Source: an uncultured Lachnospiraceae bacterium (GTDB taxonomy: Bacteria > Bacillota > Clostridia > Lachnospirales > Lachnospiraceae). From it: DNA of 48,722 nucleotides. Positions 3,090 to 30,012 of this stretch are shown piece after piece. Every line of letters begins with the position of its first letter. Position 1 is the first letter of the stretch. The notes below the pieces were generated by a model that ran no database searches, was not told where the DNA came from, and worked only from the letters and a program-made list of their open reading frames with translations. The stretch spans positions 1 to 48,722 of the forward strand of contig OMVA01000051.1 in the NCBI GenBank assembly GCA_900314445.1. Reading direction: 5' to 3'. A program made the position numbers and the translations under genes.

Positions 3090-3121
3090 TGCAAATGAAC
3101 TTGCCGTGCATCTCATTTGCA
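3090..3121. repeat. Inverted pair of the TGCAAATG octamer (hairpin)
   Basis: TGCAAATGA at 3090-3098 and its exact complement TCATTTGCA at 3113-3121 can form a 9-bp stem with a 14-base loop between the kinase and response regulator genes. No T-run follows, so it is not a classical terminator. It is the clearest inverted pair of the octamer that recurs between genes across this window. Confidence 0.7.
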
Positions 3122-19477: not shown

Positions 19478-22426
19478 ATGGCTGAACTGAAGTATATAAC
19501 CATAAAGGGCGCCAGAGAACACAACCTGAAGAATGTGGATCTGAAGCTGCCTAGAAATAAGTTTATCGTCTTTACCGGACTTTCTGGTTCTGGTAAGTCT
19601 TCTCTGGCTTTCGATACCATCTATGCCGAGGGGCAGCGTCGCTATATTGAGTCCCTGTCTTCCTATGCCCGCATGTTCCTGGGCCAGGCAGATAAGCCGG
19701 ACGTGGATAAGATTGAAGGTATGTCACCGGCAATTTCAATCGACCAGAAATCTACTAACCGCAATCCTCGTTCTACCGTTGGTACGGTTACAGAGATTTA
19801 TGATTACCTGCGTCTTTTATATGCCCGTGTGGGAACACCCCATTGCCCAAACTGTGGACGTGTCATCGAGAAGCAGACCGTGGATCAGATGACAGACCAG
19901 ATTATGAGGCTGCCTGAAAAGACCAAGTTCCAGGTGCTGTCACCGGTTGTTCGTGGCCGCAAGGGTACCCATGAAAAGGTGCTGGCTGCAGCCAAGAGGA
20001 GTGGCTTTGTCCGTGTTATCGTGGACGGAAACCAGTATACTCTGGATGAAGAAATTACCTTAGAAAAGAATAAGAAGCATGAAATCGACATTGTTGTTGA
20101 CCGACTGGTTCGCAAGGATGGCATCGAAAGCCGTCTGGCCCAGTCCCTGGAAACAGCAATGAAACAGAGCGATGGCATCATCAAAATCGACATCCTGCCT
20201 GATAAGAAGGCCCCTGCAAATGAAATTTCCACCGATGACGAAACGGCTTTCCTTCGTGATGCACGTAAGGAAAAGGAGGCAAATGATGTGCTTGCCCAGG
20301 CAGAAGTGCTGCCATCCGGAGACAGAATTCTCACCTTCAGTGATTCTTTCTCTTGCCCTCACTGCAATATTTCCATTGATGAGATCGAACCACGTTCCTT
20401 CTCTTTCAACAACCCATATGGCGCCTGCCCTGTTTGTACGGGTCTTGGCTACAAGCAGAAGTTCGATATGGAACTGGTTATTCCAGATCAGACAAGAACT
20501 TTGAATGAGGGCGTATTTGCAGTACCTGGACTTCAGTCCTCTGGTGATCCAAAGTCCTTTACCCATGCACTTCTTGTGGCACTGGCTAAGGAATATAACT
20601 TCTCTATGGATGTGCCTTACAAGGATCTTCCTCAGGAAGCAAAAGATGTAATTATGTATGGAACTGGCAGACATTCCATTTCCATTCACTATCAGAGCAC
20701 ACGTTCTTCCAAGAACGTGTTCACTCATCCTTTTGAAGGTGTTCTGCAGAATCTGGAAGACAGATATCGTATGACAGGTTCTGGAAATGCCAAGGAAGAG
20801 TATGAGTCCTTTATGACATTTATTCCATGTGAAGAGTGTCATGGTATGAGACTGAAGAAGTCTTCTCTGGCAGTTACAGTGGGAGATAAGAACATTTTCG
20901 ATATGACAGAAATGTCAGTGGAAAAATTAAAGGACTATGTGGAAGGTCTGGAACTTACAGAAAGACAGAAAATGATTGGTGCAGAGATTCTGCGTGAAAT
21001 CAAATCTCGTCTGAAGTTCATGTCAGATGTAGGACTGAACTACCTGTCTCTCAGCCGTGCCACAGCCACACTTTCTGGTGGGGAGGCACAGAGAATCAGA
21101 TTGGCAACCCAGATTGGTTCCGGCCTGGTTGGTGTTACTTATATTCTGGATGAACCATCCATTGGTCTGCACCAGAGAGATAATGATAAGCTGATTACTT
21201 CCCTCAAGCGTCTGCAGTCTTTAGGAAATACCCTGATTGTGGTTGAGCATGATGAAGATACCATGCGTGCAGCAGATATGATTGTGGATATTGGACCTGC
21301 GGCTGGTCGCCATGGTGGTCAGATTGTTGCCCAGGGAACTGCTGAGCAGCTTATGAAGAATCCAAAGTCCCTTACAGGACAGTACCTGGCTCATACAAAA
21401 GAAATCAAGGTTCCTGAGACGCGTAGAACTTCAAAGGAATTTATAACCATTAAGGGAGCCAAGGAACATAACCTGAAGAATCTTACTGTTAAGATTCCTA
21501 AGGGAGTATTTACCGTTGTTACTGGTGTATCTGGTTCCGGTAAGTCATCCCTGATTAATGAGATTCTGAAGAAGAGACTTCTTCGTGATCTCAACCATGC
21601 CCGTGTAAAACCAGGTATTCATGAGGATATTACAGGCTATGAATCTATGGATAAGGTCATCGATATTGACCAGTCTCCAATTGGTCGTTCCCCTCGTTCC
21701 AATCCCGCCACATACACAGGCGTATTTGATATGATTCGTACCCTCTTTGCCGGCACAAAGGATGCCAAGGCCTTCGGTTTTGAAAAGGGAAGATTCTCTT
21801 TCAACGTTGCAGGTGGAAGATGTGAAGCTTGTAAGGGCGACGGTATCATCAAGATTGAAATGCACTTCCTGCCAGACATCTACGTTCCTTGTGAAGTCTG
21901 TGGCGGAAAGAGATATAACCATGAAACTCTTCAGTGCCGTTACCGTGGCAAGACCATTTACGACGTGCTGGATATGACAGTGGATGAAGCGGTTGAGTTC
22001 TTTGATTCCGTACCATCTGTTCTTAGAAAGATTAAGACCCTGCAGGATGTAGGTCTTGGATATATCAAGCTTGGTCAGCCGTCCACCACACTTTCTGGTG
22101 GCGAGGCCCAGCGTATTAAGCTGGCAACCGAGCTGTCCCGTCGTGGCACCGGCAATACCATTTACATTCTGGATGAGCCAACCACAGGACTGCATTTTGA
22201 AGACATTAAGAAACTCCTGAAAATTCTGCAGCAGTTTGCAGATCAGGGCAATACCGTTGTAGTCATCGAACATAACATGGATGTTATCAAGCAGGCGGAC
22301 TACATCATCGACCTGGGACCTGAGGGTGGTGACGGTGGTGGAACCATCGTGGCAACTGGCACACCAGAAGAGGTGGCTAAGGTCAATAAATCATACACAG
22401 GTAGATATCTGAAGAGATATCTTTAG
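19478..22426 (+). CDS. uvrA: Excinuclease ABC subunit A
   Basis: A 982-residue dimeric ABC ATPase that finds DNA damage and loads UvrB. Both Walker A motifs are present (GLSGSGKSS near residue 33 and GVSGSGKSS near 690), as are two ABC signatures ([13 protein letters not shown] and [13 protein letters not shown]) and zinc-finger cysteines including CEACKGDG and CEVCGGKRY. The frame opens at 19433, but the ATG at 19478 gives the canonical start [19 protein letters not shown]; its ribosome site is only a weak A/G-rich one. Eight bases separate it from the NUDIX gene. Confidence 0.96.
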
Positions 22427-23381: not shown

Positions 23382-23412
23382 AGTGTGTTAATTTCTTTGG
23401 GAATACTGCTGA

Positions 23413-23441
23413 TTGAATATGACCGATTGTGACCATATAAT
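23413..23441 (+). promoter_or_regulatory. Sigma-A type promoter of fru operon
   Basis: TTGAAT at 23413-23418, a 17-bp spacer, and a consensus TATAAT at 23436-23441. The transcription start would be near 23448, giving a leader of about 210 bases. Confidence 0.75.
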
Positions 23442-23661: not shown

Positions 23662-24567
23662 ATGGTTTATACAGTTACCTTTAATCCCTCACTTGACTAC
23701 ATCGTGGAAGTAGATCATTTCAAGCTGGGAATGACAAACAGAACATCATCTGAACTTATGCTTCCAGGTGGTAAGGGTGTAAATGTATCCATCGTACTTA
23801 GCAATCTGGGTATTGAAAATACAGCAATTTATTTCAGCGCTGGATTTGTTGGCGATGAGATTACAAGAAGAATTCAGGAAAGCGGAATCAATGCAGATGA
23901 AATCAAGATTGATGAAGGCTGTTCCAGAATTAATCTGAAGTTAAAGACAATTGATGGTACAGAAATTAACGGAATGGGTCCAGTGATTAAGCAGGAAAAC
24001 ATCGATCAACTCTTCAAGAAGCTGGACAGTCTCCAGAGAGGCGACACATTGGTTCTTGCTGGTTCCATCCCAAGCTCAATGCCAGAAACTATGTACAGCG
24101 ACATCATGCATCGACTGGAAGGTCGTGGAATCCGCATCGTGGTTGATGCCACAAAGGATCTGCTTCTGAATGTACTTCAGTACAAGCCGTTCCTGATTAA
24201 GCCAAACAATCATGAACTTGGCGAAATCTTCGGCGTTGAACTTCCAACACGCGAAAGCGTTGTGCCTTATGCAAAGAAGCTTCAGGAACGTGGTGCTGAA
24301 AATGTCATTATTTCCATGGCTGGCGAAGGTGCTGTATTCATCGCATCGGATGGCAACGTATATATGAGAGAAGCACCTAAGGGAACTCTGGTAAATGGAG
24401 TTGGCGCTGGTGACTCAATGGTTGCTGGATTTATTGCTGGTATGATTACTGAAGATGATCTGCTCCATGCATTCCGTATGGGGGTATCTGCAGGTTCTGC
24501 AAGTGCCTTCTCTGAATACCTGGCAACAAAGGAAGAAGTCATGCAGGTACTCAGTCAGGTTGAGTAA
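23662..24567 (+). CDS. fruK: 1-phosphofructokinase
   Basis: A 301-residue PfkB-family sugar kinase converting fructose 1-phosphate to fructose 1,6-bisphosphate. Motifs: MVYTVTFNPSLDYIV at the start, the substrate-binding LPGGKGVNVS near residue 35, and the anion hole with catalytic Asp in NGVGAGDSMVAG near residue 250. The ATG at 23662 with GGAGGA upstream is chosen over an in-frame start 33 bases earlier. It is the first gene of a fructose PTS operon; a hairpin at 24581 separates it from fruA. Confidence 0.95.
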   Translation: MVYTVTFNPSLDYIVEVDHFKLGMTNRTSSELMLPGGKGVNVSIVLSNLGIENTAIYFSAGFVGDEITRRIQESGINADEIKIDEGCSRINLKLKTIDGTEINGMGPVIKQENIDQLFKKLDSLQRGDTLVLAGSIPSSMPETMYSDIMHRLEGRGIRIVVDATKDLLLNVLQYKPFLIKPNNHELGEIFGVELPTRESVVPYAKKLQERGAENVIISMAGEGAVFIASDGNVYMREAPKGTLVNGVGAGDSMVAGFIAGMITEDDLLHAFRMGVSAGSASAFSEYLATKEEVMQVLSQVE

Positions 24568-24699: not shown

Positions 24700-26757
24700 A
24701 TGAGAATTACAGAACTTCTTGACATTAAGTCAATTGATCTTAATGCAAGTCCTGCAAATAAGCGGGAAACTCTGGATGCCGCTGTTGAACTGATGGCAAA
24801 ATCTGGAAAGATCACAGATAAGGAAGCTTACAAGAAGCTTGTTTATGCTCGTGAGGAAGAAAGCACAACAGGTGTAGGCGAAGGCATCGCAATTCCTCAT
24901 GGTAAGGGCGCATGTGTAGCAAAGCCTGGTCTTGCTGCTATGGTAATTAAGAATGGTGTTGATTTTGAGGCACTGGATGATGAACCAGTTAACATCCTCT
25001 TCCTGATTGCAGCTCCAGATACAAAGGATAATGTTCACTTAGATGTTCTCTCTAAGCTTTCTATGATGCTGATGGATGAGGACTTCAGAAACAATCTGAT
25101 CAATGCAAAGGGTCCTCAGGACTTCATCAATATCATTGATGCAGCAGATGAGGAAAGAAAGTCAGTTGATGAAAGCCTTGCTGAAACAAGTATCGATAAT
25201 GGCGGAGCAAAGATTGTTGCTGTAACATCTTGCCCAACTGGTATCGCTCATACTTACATGGCTGCTGAAGGTCTTGAAAAGGCAGCAAAGAAGGCAGGTA
25301 TACAGATTAAGATTGAAACACGTGGTTCTTCAGGTGCTAAGAATATACTGACAGATGCTGATATCGCAGCAGCAGATGCAGTTATTGTTGCAGCGGATGC
25401 AAAGGTTCCAATGGACAGATTTGCAGGCAAGAAACTGATCCAGAGAAAGGTTGCTGATGGTATTAATAAGGCAGATGAACTGGTAGCACTTGCAGTTTCT
25501 GGGGAAGCTCCAGTATTTGAAGCTTCTGGCGCAGAAGGGAAGGAAGAAAAGAAGTCAGGTGGCGGAGCTCATAATGTTTATACATGGCTCATGGCTGGAG
25601 TGTCACACATGCTTCCATTCGTAGTAGGTGGTGGTATTCTCGTAGCTATCGCATTCCTGATTGATACAATCGCAGGCTATGGTGCATCTGGTTCTGGTAA
25701 CTTCGGTTCCATCACACCACTTGCAGCACTCTTTAAGAACCTTGGTGGTACAGCAATGGGACTTATGGTTCCAGTACTTGCTGGTTATATCGCATACGCT
25801 ATTGCAGATCGTCCAGGCCTTGCAGTTGGTTTCACAGGTGGTCTGCTTGCATCTAACGGTAATGCAGCACTTGCAAACTTCGTATTCGCAGATGGTAAGA
25901 ACATTGTTCTTGGAGATGCAACAACACCTCTTGGTGGCTTCTCACAGTTCCTTGCTAAGTTCGGATTCCAGGCAGGTGGTAACACAGTATCTGGTTTCCT
26001 TGGTGGTATTGCAGCTGGTTTCCTTGCTGGTGGTATCGTACTTCTTCTTCAGAAGATTTGTGCAAAAATGCCTGCAGCACTTGATGGAATTAAGCCAATG
26101 CTTATCTATCCATTAGTTGGTATTTTCCTGGAAGGTCTTATCATGATCTTCATCCTGAATCCAGTAATCGGTGTTGTTAACACAAGCCTTTCAAACATGC
26201 TTCAGGCAATTGGTGATTCTGGAATGCTTTGGCTTCTGGGAATGATTCTTGGTGCAATGATGGCAATTGATATGGGTGGCCCAATTAACAAGGCAGCTTA
26301 CGTATTCGGTACAGGTATGCTGACACAGGCATCAGCATCTAATGACCCAGCATTCCAGCAGATCGCATACATCTCTATGGCAGCAGTAATGGTAGGTGGT
26401 ATGTGTCCTCCTGTTGGTATTGCACTTGCAAACCTTCTCTTCCCTAAGAAGTTCACAAAGGCAGAGAAGTCCACAGTAGTTACAAACTTCATCATGGGTG
26501 CTTCCTTTATTACAGAAGGTGCAATTCCATTTGCAGCAGCTGACCCAATCCATGTAATCCCAGCAACTCTTGTTGGTTCTGGCGTTGCAGGACTTCTGGT
26601 AGCAGTATTCAAGTGTACATTAATGGCTCCTCACGGTGGTCTCTTCGTAGTAGCTACAATCGGTAATCCACTGATGTACCTCCTTGCTTGGCTGGTTGGT
26701 TCTGTTATTACATGTATCCTGCTTGGTCTTCTTAAGAAGCCAGCTCAGGAATTCTAA
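24700..26757 (+). CDS. fruA: PTS fructose transporter subunit IIABC
   Basis: A 685-residue three-domain permease that imports fructose and phosphorylates it to fructose 1-phosphate. IIA (about 1-150) has its phospho-His67 in AIPHGKG, IIB (about 170-270) has phospho-Cys178 in VAVTSCPTGIAHTYMAAE, and IIC (about 290-685) is the membrane channel with about nine hydrophobic segments. AAGGAGG is 9 bases before the ATG. A two-codon frame ATGAAATGA starts at 24695 and overlaps the start codon, so ribosomes may begin there and restart. Codon 1 at 24700 is the only sensible start for the protein. Confidence 0.95.
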   Translation: MRITELLDIKSIDLNASPANKRETLDAAVELMAKSGKITDKEAYKKLVYAREEESTTGVGEGIAIPHGKGACVAKPGLAAMVIKNGVDFEALDDEPVNILFLIAAPDTKDNVHLDVLSKLSMMLMDEDFRNNLINAKGPQDFINIIDAADEERKSVDESLAETSIDNGGAKIVAVTSCPTGIAHTYMAAEGLEKAAKKAGIQIKIETRGSSGAKNILTDADIAAADAVIVAADAKVPMDRFAGKKLIQRKVADGINKADELVALAVSGEAPVFEASGAEGKEEKKSGGGAHNVYTWLMAGVSHMLPFVVGGGILVAIAFLIDTIAGYGASGSGNFGSITPLAALFKNLGGTAMGLMVPVLAGYIAYAIADRPGLAVGFTGGLLASNGNAALANFVFADGKNIVLGDATTPLGGFSQFLAKFGFQAGGNTVSGFLGGIAAGFLAGGIVLLLQKICAKMPAALDGIKPMLIYPLVGIFLEGLIMIFILNPVIGVVNTSLSNMLQAIGDSGMLWLLGMILGAMMAIDMGGPINKAAYVFGTGMLTQASASNDPAFQQIAYISMAAVMVGGMCPPVGIALANLLFPKKFTKAEKSTVVTNFIMGASFITEGAIPFAAADPIHVIPATLVGSGVAGLLVAVFKCTLMAPHGGLFVVATIGNPLMYLLAWLVGSVITCILLGLLKKPAQEF

Positions 26758-27216
26758 AGCAAATTTAGAAGATAGAGTTAAGGAATTAAGTAACAAAGTA
26801 AGAAGGAAAAGTAACAAGTAACAAGGAAGTAATGAAGTTAAAGTTACAAGTAACAGGGAAGTAATAAAGTTAAAGTTACAAGTAACAAGGAGGTAATAAA
26901 GTTAAAGTTACAAGTAACAAGGAAGTAATAAAGTTAAAGTTACAAGTAACAAGGAAGTAATAAAGTTAAAGTTACAAGTAACAAGGAAGTAATAAAGTTA
27001 AAGTTACAAGTAACAAGGAAGTAATAAAGTTAAAGTTACAAGTAACAAGGAAGTAATAAAGTTAAAGTTTCAAGTAAGAAAGTAAGAAGTAATAAAGTTA
27101 ACTAACAAGAGAAGAAATGAAATAGCCGGCCTGGGAATCAGTCCTGGGTCGGCGCAAATGAAAAAGAAAAGAATAAGGCACTCGGTGTCAACATATTAAG
27201 AAAAGAGGGTACAAAA
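26758..27216. other. 459-bp region between fruA and ptsH
   Basis: Dominated by the 32-bp repeat array (26811 to about 27098). Before it lies A/G-rich DNA with repeat fragments; after it a GC-rich segment with two direct CCTGGG copies and a near-octamer CGCAAATG (27153-27160). No convincing terminator or promoter was found, so ptsH may be read through from fruA or from a promoter hidden in the repeats. Confidence 0.65.
26811..27098. repeat. 32-bp tandem repeat array, about nine units
   Basis: Units start at 26811, 26843, 26875, 26907, 26939, 26971, 27003, 27035 and 27067, exactly 32 bp apart. The central ones are almost identical and the outer ones degenerate. From unit 2 to unit 8 each begins with the dyad GTTACAAGTAAC (GTTAC-AA-GTAAC), followed by AAGGAAGTAATAAAGTTAAA or a one-base variant. 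Every unit carries stops, so it is not coding. A 32-bp period is close to three helical turns, so all dyads would face the same side of the DNA. There are no unique spacers, so it is not a CRISPR. Confidence 0.95.
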
Positions 27217-27474
27217 ATGGCAAGTTTTGATTATACAATTAAGGATGTTCACGGAATTCACGCTAGACCAGCAACAGAGCTTTTTAAGCTTTCTAAGCAG
27301 TTTGGAAGTTCTGTAAAGGCAGCTAAGGATGGTAAGGAAGTTGCATTCAAGGGTGTTATGGGAATTATGGCACTGGGCGCTAAGCAGGGTGATACAGTAA
27401 CTTTCTCATTCGATGGCCCAGATGCTGACGCTGAGTGTGCTGCATTCAAGGAGTTCATGGAAGCAAATCTGTAA
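27217..27474 (+). CDS. ptsH: Phosphocarrier protein HPr lacking Ser46
   Basis: An 85-residue HPr. The phospho-His15 motif GIHARPAT is intact, so it can pass phosphate from EI to FruA. The second landmark of Firmicutes HPr, Ser46 in the LKSIMG segment (target of HPr kinase, used for CcpA signalling), is replaced: the segment reads FKGVMGIMALG, with Gly46 (codon GGT). The protein should therefore work in transport but not in Ser-P catabolite repression. The ribosome site GAGGG is modest. It follows the 32-bp repeat array and precedes ptsI by 129 bp. Confidence 0.95.
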   Translation: MASFDYTIKDVHGIHARPATELFKLSKQFGSSVKAAKDGKEVAFKGVMGIMALGAKQGDTVTFSFDGPDADAECAAFKEFMEANL

Positions 27475-27497
27475 GTTGTAAGTGACCAAAGGTAATG

Positions 27498-27529
27498 ATT
27501 CATGACTGTCCTTGGACAGTTGCATGAAT
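27498..27529 (+). other. Intercistronic hairpin between ptsH and ptsI
   Basis: ATTCATG/CATGAAT and, inside, CTGTCC-TT-GGACAG form an extended interrupted stem with no T-run after it. It may tune the ptsH to ptsI ratio by RNA stability. Confidence 0.6.
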
Positions 27530-27603
27530 TGGGGTTTGTAACAGTATAGGTAACTGAGTGCCAGGGACCGCGGATTACTTATACATAATCAGGAGGGTGA
27601 AAC

Positions 27604-29253
27604 ATGATAGTTTGCAGTGGTAAGAGTGTCTTTGAAGGCATTGCAATTGGTCCGATTCATGTATATAAGAAAGAAGAACAATCTGTAAAACGTACTAAGG
27701 TTACAGATTTAGATGCTGAAGTTGCACGTTATACAGCTGCTCGTGAGACAGCAATTGAACAGCTTCAGGCTTTGCATGATAAGGCAGTAGTTGAAGTTGG
27801 TGAGTCCGGTGCTGAAATCTTTGAAGCACACCAGCTCATGGTTGAAGACGGAGATTATATTGATTCCGTTGAAAATATTATTCGGACACAGGGAGTTAAT
27901 GCAGAATACGCAGTTGCACAGACCGGCGACAATTTTGCTTTGATGTTCTCAGAAATGGATGATGAATATTTTCGTGGCAGAGCTGCAGATATCAAGGATA
28001 TTACAGAACGTCTGATTACTATCCTTTCTGGCGGCGCTGGTGGCGGTCTAGATAGTGATGAACCTGGTATCATCGTAGCTGATGATCTTGCTCCATCCGA
28101 GACAGTACAGATGGATAAGGATAAGATCCTTGCCTTCGTTACTGTTCACGGTTCAGCAAATTCTCATACTTCAATCCTGGCAAAGACAATGTCAATTCCA
28201 GCACTGGTTACCTGTGATATTTCACTGGAAGATACAGATGGCAAGCTTGCTGTTGTTGATGGATATGAAGGTGTAATTTACATTGATCCAAATCCAGAAA
28301 TCCTTGCGCAGAAGAAAGAAGCTCTGGCAAAGGAACAGGAGAAGAAGGAACTCCTTCTGCAACTGAAAGGTAAGGAAAATGTAACTCTCGATGGCCAGAA
28401 GATTAACATCTATGCCAACATCGGAAACACAAAGGACCTTGCTCTTGTAAGGAAGAATGATGCAAATGGTATTGGTCTTTTCCGTTCAGAATTCATTTAC
28501 CTTGGATCAGACGACTATCCAACAGAAGATCAGCAGTTTGCTATTTATAAGCAGGTAGCTGAGACAATGGCCGGAAAGAAGGTCATTATCCGTACACTTG
28601 ATATTGGTGCTGATAAACAGGCAGATTATTTTGAATTGCCTCATGAGGAGAATCCAGCCATGGGTCTCCGTGCTATCAGAATCTGTCTGACACGCCCAGA
28701 AATATTTAAGACACAGCTTCGTGCGTTGTTAAGAGCAAGTGCTTATGGTAAACTTGCAATCATGTTCCCTATGATCATTTCTGTTGAAGAAGTTAAGAAG
28801 ATTAAGGAGATTGTTGCAGAAGTTGAGAAAGAACTTGATGCAGCGGATATTAAGTACGACCACGATATTGAACTGGGTATCATGATTGAGACTCCAGCTG
28901 CTGTAATGATTGCAGATGAACTTGCAGAAGAAGTTGATTTCTTCTCTGTAGGTACAAATGATCTGACACAGTACACGCTTGCAATTGATCGTCAGAATCA
29001 GACATTAGACTCATTCTATGATTCACACCATCCTGCTATTTTAAAGATGCTTAAGATGATTGTAGATGCAGCTCACAGGCATAATGCATGGGCTGGTATC
29101 TGTGGTGAGCTTGGTGCAGATCTTACATTGACTAAGGAATTCCTGGCAATGGGATTTGATGAGCTTTCCGTATCTCCAGGTCGAGTACTTCCTATCCGTA
29201 AGATTGTTCTTGAGACAGACGTAGCGGAATATAAGAAGAGCAAGGGAGAATAA
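27604..29253 (+). CDS. ptsI: PTS enzyme I (phosphoenolpyruvate-protein phosphotransferase)
   Basis: A 549-residue enzyme I that takes phosphate from PEP and gives it to HPr. The phospho-His188 is in VHGSANSHTSILAKTMSIPAL, a slightly divergent active-site segment, and the C-terminal PEP-binding domain has the catalytic Cys in AGICGELGAD. It is about 20 residues shorter than typical EI. AGGAGGG sits 7 bases before the ATG. Only 3 bp separate it from the DeoR regulator. Having general PTS genes inside a fructose locus suggests a dedicated or at least co-regulated phosphate chain. Confidence 0.95.
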   Translation: MIVCSGKSVFEGIAIGPIHVYKKEEQSVKRTKVTDLDAEVARYTAARETAIEQLQALHDKAVVEVGESGAEIFEAHQLMVEDGDYIDSVENIIRTQGVNAEYAVAQTGDNFALMFSEMDDEYFRGRAADIKDITERLITILSGGAGGGLDSDEPGIIVADDLAPSETVQMDKDKILAFVTVHGSANSHTSILAKTMSIPALVTCDISLEDTDGKLAVVDGYEGVIYIDPNPEILAQKKEALAKEQEKKELLLQLKGKENVTLDGQKINIYANIGNTKDLALVRKNDANGIGLFRSEFIYLGSDDYPTEDQQFAIYKQVAETMAGKKVIIRTLDIGADKQADYFELPHEENPAMGLRAIRICLTRPEIFKTQLRALLRASAYGKLAIMFPMIISVEEVKKIKEIVAEVEKELDAADIKYDHDIELGIMIETPAAVMIADELAEEVDFFSVGTNDLTQYTLAIDRQNQTLDSFYDSHHPAILKMLKMIVDAAHRHNAWAGICGELGADLTLTKEFLAMGFDELSVSPGRVLPIRKIVLETDVAEYKKSKGE

Positions 29254-29256
29254 GCC

Positions 29257-30012
29257 ATGTTATCCGAAGAACGTAAGGGTGAGATATTAAGAATCGTCAA
29301 TACAAATAAATCTGTCACTGTTCAGGAGTTACGAAGTATCCTGAATGTGTCTGAATCGACTATTCGAAGAGATATTACGCTCCTCAGTCGTGAGGGACGT
29401 TTGGTTAAGGTCTTCGGTGGAGCAGTGGCTCTGGATAATCCTCCGAATGCGGTAGAGTTATCTGTACTGGCTAAGGAGACAATGAACAGGGATGAAAAGA
29501 GAGCGATTGCAGAATATGCAGCATCTCTGATTGTTCCAGACGATTATGTATATATTGATTCCGGTACCACAACGGAAATGATGATTGAATTTATTCATGA
29601 GAAGAATGCAACTTATGTTACAAATGCAGTTTCTCATGCAAAGGGTCTTGTAAGACGCGGACTAAAGGTACTCCTGATTGGCGGAGAACTGAAGGAAAAT
29701 ACAGAAGCTATTGTGGGTGCAGACGCCATTCTGCATATCCAGAAATACCATTTTTCTAAAGGATTCTTTGGTACAAATGGAGTTAACATGAAGCTTGGTT
29801 TTACAACGCCTGATGTAAGAGAAGCTCTGATCAAGAGGGTTGCTATTCAGAACACACAGCCAGGTAGCAGATTCATTCTGGCAGACCATGACAAATTCGG
29901 GCAGTCATCTGCAGTAACATTTTCCGATTTTGGTGGAACTGTAACCATTACTGATAAGTATCCGGGCGAAATTTACAGTAAGGCAATGGAGTTAAAGATT
30001 ATCACAAAATAG
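29257..30012 (+). CDS. DeoR-family transcriptional regulator (FruR-like)
   Basis: A 251-residue repressor. The N-terminal winged helix (residues 1-57) has the DeoR signature VSESTIRRDITLLSREGRLVKVFGGA. The rest is the DeoRC sugar-phosphate-sensing domain with DYVYIDSGTTTEMM and GFFGTNGVNMKLGFTTPD. It is the last gene of the fructose PTS set, 3 bp after ptsI, so it probably senses fructose 1-phosphate or a related compound and controls fruK. Candidate sites are the TGCAAAA repeats and the inverted repeat near 23.4 kb. Confidence 0.9.
   Translation: MLSEERKGEILRIVNTNKSVTVQELRSILNVSESTIRRDITLLSREGRLVKVFGGAVALDNPPNAVELSVLAKETMNRDEKRAIAEYAASLIVPDDYVYIDSGTTTEMMIEFIHEKNATYVTNAVSHAKGLVRRGLKVLLIGGELKENTEAIVGADAILHIQKYHFSKGFFGTNGVNMKLGFTTPDVREALIKRVAIQNTQPGSRFILADHDKFGQSSAVTFSDFGGTVTITDKYPGEIYSKAMELKIITK

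Follow-up and report, generated by a model that had tools for sequence, protein, structure and literature searches.

A tandem array of 32-bp units between fruA and ptsH in an uncultured Lachnospiraceae bacterium is very probably a species-specific minisatellite

The window, i.e. the whole stretch of 48,722 nucleotides analysed here, makes up one entire contig of a draft genome (2.1 Mb, 108 contigs). By Pfam it carries the gene order fruK-fruA-ptsH-ptsI-deoR/fruR, all on the + strand, with a tandem array in the fruA-ptsH gap:

23410-23441, + strand: predicted conserved fru promoter/operator, TGATTGAATATGACCGATTGTGACCATATAAT (footprint in 16 relatives; promoter scan)
23662-24567, + strand: fruK, 1-phosphofructokinase of the PfkB family (Pfam PF00294)
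24700-26757, + strand: fruA, fructose PTS EIIABC (Pfam EIIA_2, IIB, EIIC)
26808-27101, no strand: tandem array of the 32-bp unit AAAGTTACAAGTAACAAGGAAGTAATAAAGTT, 9.1 copies (Tandem Repeats Finder, TRF, and unit table)
26808-26839, no strand: unit 1, with two substitutions; dyad broken, reading GTAACAAGTAAC (unit table)
26843-27046, no strand: seven exact GTTACAAGTAAC dyads, starting at 26843, 26875, 26907, 26939, 26971, 27003 and 27035
27064-27101, no strand: unit 9, the last, strongly degenerate; dyad broken, reading GTTTCAAGTAAG
27125-27153, + strand: RNA hairpin of 12 bp with a 5-nt loop, between the array and ptsH (fold)
27217-27474, + strand: ptsH, HPr (Pfam PTS-HPr)
27604-29253, + strand: ptsI, enzyme I (Pfam PEP-utilizers)
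29257-30012, + strand: DeoR-family regulator, probable FruR (Pfam DeoRC, HTH_DeoR)

The fruK start was picked by orthologue alignment and RBS. The position of the DeoR-family gene is conserved, as relatives too carry one beside ptsI or ptsH. Between ptsH and ptsI many relatives have ~2 kb, while ptsI directly follows ptsH here (27475-27603) and is likewise adjacent to it in a few relatives. Canonical HPr has a regulatory Ser46; position 46 of the HPr encoded here is Gly (KGVMG), likewise in genus orthologues, and therefore the HPr of the fru operon should, judging from its sequence, escape control by HPr kinase.

The array was the top-scoring one in the window (26808-27101; period 32, 95% match, score 510). 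The original prediction of nine 32-bp repeats stood, its coordinates (26811-27098) being shifted by three bases. The units had also been called nearly identical, which was borne out for units 2-8, all at most one base from the consensus: when units were aligned in register, the five central copies (26904-27063) were identical and units 2 and 3 carried a single substitution each; unit 9 by its degeneracy departs from that description. A GTTAC-AA-GTAAC dyad had been read in all nine units, a count two too high: the exact dyad occurs in seven of the nine and is broken in both end units. Perfect 32-bp periodicity extends for more than 170 bp, a length at which short-read assembly may get the size of the array wrong. 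Words of the unit recur as short cryptic repeats in both flanks of the array (TRF rows at 26788-26828 and 27072-27098). The units thus lie head to tail with high identity and within the ~10-100 bp class of minisatellites. The array is non-coding, as 32 is not a multiple of three and TAA stops occur throughout, and no ORF of at least 80 aa crosses it. Two other candidates were rejected: i) a hidden peptide, because successive units fall into different reading frames and are rich in stops, with an ATG only in unit 1 (this ATG opens a 10-codon ORF which, read by eye, is absent from the other units); and ii) a CRISPR array, because the units are contiguous, with no unique spacers between repeats.

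The array is confined to a single locus and lineage. Its unit had no second locus in the genome, was absent from 298 other genomes of the family (27-base core, up to three mismatches), and viral contigs gave no match. The fruA-ptsH gap measures 459 bp (26758-27216) here versus ~18-186 bp (mostly ~18-75 bp) in those relatives of the genus in which the fruA-ptsH neighbourhood is retained, and the array is absent from their gaps. In the 0.89 Mb of this genome surveyed in stretches, 32 intergenic arrays had a TRF score of at least 75, the one between fruA and ptsH included, with periods of 10-97 bp and units mostly unrelated to the fruA-ptsH unit. Array density was 3.6 per 100 kb, versus 1.0 and 1.5 in two relatives (G002 and G024) under the same pipeline, these densities being approximate owing to a crude longest-ORF gene caller. 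Because the genome holds 32 such arrays at a density above that of two relatives, the fruA-ptsH array is the strongest case of a genome-wide tendency. Other intergenic arrays with unrelated units lie, for example, at 2510-2727 of L104, 15916-16054 of L083 and 568-671 of L098.

Control of the fru operon appears to be seated upstream of fruK. The regions upstream of fruK in 16 genus relatives share a motif, TGATTGAnTnTGACnGAnTnTGAnnnTATAAT, which overlaps the -10 box, and the best site of the promoter scan is at 23413-23441 (10/12 match). A score matrix built on 15 distinct relative sequences upstream of fruK gave 40 bits to the copy at 23410-23441 (relatives, 39-49 bits), -2 bits to the runner-up across the entire window and -26 bits to the best site in the fruA-ptsH gap. 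From its position and the DeoR-family gene, 23410-23441 is likely the FruR operator and operon promoter. The locus is like DeoR-family FruR fru operons in having a DeoR-family gene together with a conserved operator-like element; the array is unlike FruR operators, as the operator-like element, a TGATTGA-type direct repeat, lies at the fruK promoter and differs in sequence from the array unit. On footprint and score matrix (-26 versus 40 bits), the array was rejected as the FruR operator.

A high-occupancy operator array, another of the readings first offered, would be bound by a dimeric regulator such as the DeoR-family protein of the operon; in its favour, seven units carry a perfect 5-bp dyad at near-integral helical spacing. 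The dyads had been said to face one side of the DNA, which holds roughly: on a helix of 10.5 bp per turn, each 32-bp unit adds a drift of 17 degrees, or ~103 degrees over the seven dyads. On the other hand, the fru operator at fruK is a different element, the dyads of both edge units are broken, and a genome search proposed with the prediction returned no exact dyad outside the array, while each of 60 further genomes of the genus held the exact 12-mer once or not at all, as was the case for its reversed control. We therefore consider an operator array, as read from the sequence, very unlikely. Dyad matches with at most one mismatch did exceed chance (8 versus 0.16 expected), but this excess is mostly a restatement of unit repetition, since 10% of 5000 dinucleotide-preserving shuffles of one unit held dyad arms of at least 5 bp, the longest arms in a real unit being 5 bp. 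Equal or longer arms were found in units of several unrelated arrays of the same genome. A scan of ~85,000 species found two dyads within 8-32 bp of each other at ten scattered loci, in unrelated organisms including Massilibacteroides, Shewanella and Verrucomicrobia. A cruciform from one dyad was rejected, as DNA folding gave no structure for one 12-mer by itself.

The gap had further been described as without a clear promoter or terminator, and the scans agreed: neither a sigma-70-type promoter (the only type scanned for) was matched in 26758-27216 nor a terminator in the gap. This bears on the proposal that unit number tunes a phase-variable internal promoter of ptsHI. Copy-number variation of tandem repeats in promoters can cause phase variation in Mycobacterium tuberculosis (PMC12817950), and the array resembles those repeats in its tandem units upstream of a gene; it differs in that no promoter was found in or beside it and that it has been read in one strain. 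Phase variation of ptsHI would need a control point at the array, and none was seen; most relatives' gaps, at ~18-75 bp, are too short for a promoter, and the operon promoter is conserved upstream of fruK. An array that overlaps or abuts a sigma-70-type promoter was thus rejected, and a phase-variable ptsHI promoter is in our judgement extremely improbable.

The RNA form of the gap raises another alternative, in which a leader rich in purines and poor in C, acting alone or together with the 27125-27153 hairpin, would change how the ptsHI mRNA is processed, how stable it is or how it loads ribosomes relative to fruKA, tuned by copy number. Purines make up 72% of the coding strand in the gap and C makes up 8%, an extreme bias (a purine content of 0.72 ranks among the top 3 when 229 co-directional gaps of at least 100 bp are compared), and the unit repeats words like ribosome sites (AAGGAAG/AAGGAGG). 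The strong hairpin lies just 3' of the array (27110-27216 folds at an MFE of -26.4 kcal/mol, z -3.8); no T-run follows it, and by the scan it is not an intrinsic terminator. A few relatives (L057 and L063) also show hairpins, of other sequence, in the corresponding gap. However, no relative keeps the array, 115 bp separate its end from the ptsH start, and the centroid of the array RNA is almost unpaired. This RNA does fold better than shuffles (z -4.7), via dyads of neighbouring units, as would be expected of any tandem repeat with a dyad. No Rfam family matched in the gap at E up to 1. Such a leader effect is unlikely, and it is a still more doubtful proposition that the array acts, in this species, as a copy-number-tunable leader element setting ptsHI output relative to fruKA.

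Several lines of evidence favour a plain minisatellite, which had been one of the three readings first offered: i) the centre of the array is identical and its edges are degenerate, at a single locus where relatives have short gaps; ii) its flanks are cryptic repeats, the genome is array-rich and Rfam gave no match; iii) a dyad is expected in ~10% of shuffled units, and the promoter/operator sits elsewhere, upstream of fruK. Against it stand the placement of the highest-scoring array upstream of central PTS genes, the purine content in the top 3 of 229 and the z of -4.7 of the array RNA. On balance, the array is very probably a species-specific intergenic minisatellite, born by slippage and transcribed, as part of the mRNA, into a spacer poor in C. 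Its class, most likely minisatellite, is assigned from one strain, strain polymorphism being the usual hallmark.

Bacterial satellites of this type are known, with few in most species (PMC6749651). Like bacterial minisatellites or VNTR loci (PMC6749651), the array consists of non-coding units, each tens of bp long and joined head to tail, and is species-specific, at one locus and with degenerate edges; unlike VNTR loci, it lies within an operon instead of bordering one, and it is known from one strain.

We infer that this minisatellite arose by slippage, is transcribed by read-through and has no function. An A/G-rich stretch in the fruA-ptsH gap, prone to slippage, would have expanded to nine 32-bp copies by replication slippage or unequal exchange, the identical central copies being presumably recent and the degenerate edge copies older. 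The fruK-fruA-ptsH-ptsI-fruR message would start upstream of fruK and run through the array, which would form an untranslated, C-poor, weakly structured spacer within it. The GTTAC dyad would be a by-product of the unit sequence, copied along with the unit, and no regulatory role would be needed for the array. Rho-dependent termination would be disfavoured in untranslated RNA with so little C, and this may explain why the array is tolerated. The case calls for caution, as even a striking dyad array before central PTS genes can be accounted for by tandem expansion in a genome prone to repeats, with the fru control element proper predicted to sit elsewhere. If its copy number proved variable, the array would serve both as a strain marker and as a natural test of intra-operon spacer effects.

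The genome also carries a dispersed species-specific motif, GCAAATGRNNTNNNC, whose exact form GCAAATGARNTKNNC occurs 437 times here versus 0-9 times in 60 genus relatives (its reversed control, 0):

Dispersed motif, 20 copies in the window, e.g. at 3091 (+), 3106 (-), 14371 (+), 20216 (+), 22492 (+) and 44954 (-)

In sampled DNA, 66% of GCAAATGR sites have T at +10 together with C at +14, versus 4% and 7% in two relatives. The motif is strand-balanced with a median spacing of 1.25 kb (the wider form, ~1 per 1.2-1.7 kb of sampled DNA) and partly in inverted pairs. It is enriched in intergenic DNA and found also inside genes, where 12 distinct copies were alignable, most of them ungapped against relatives and a few in species-specific insertions. 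In uvrA (~20200-20235), for example, a motif-encoded stretch around APANEIS is missing from a relative's aligned protein. A Y1-type REP transposase was not found in this genome, and ComEC is present. By analogy, the dispersed motif resembles a DNA uptake sequence and may be likened to those of Pasteurellaceae and Neisseriaceae (PMC1939737).
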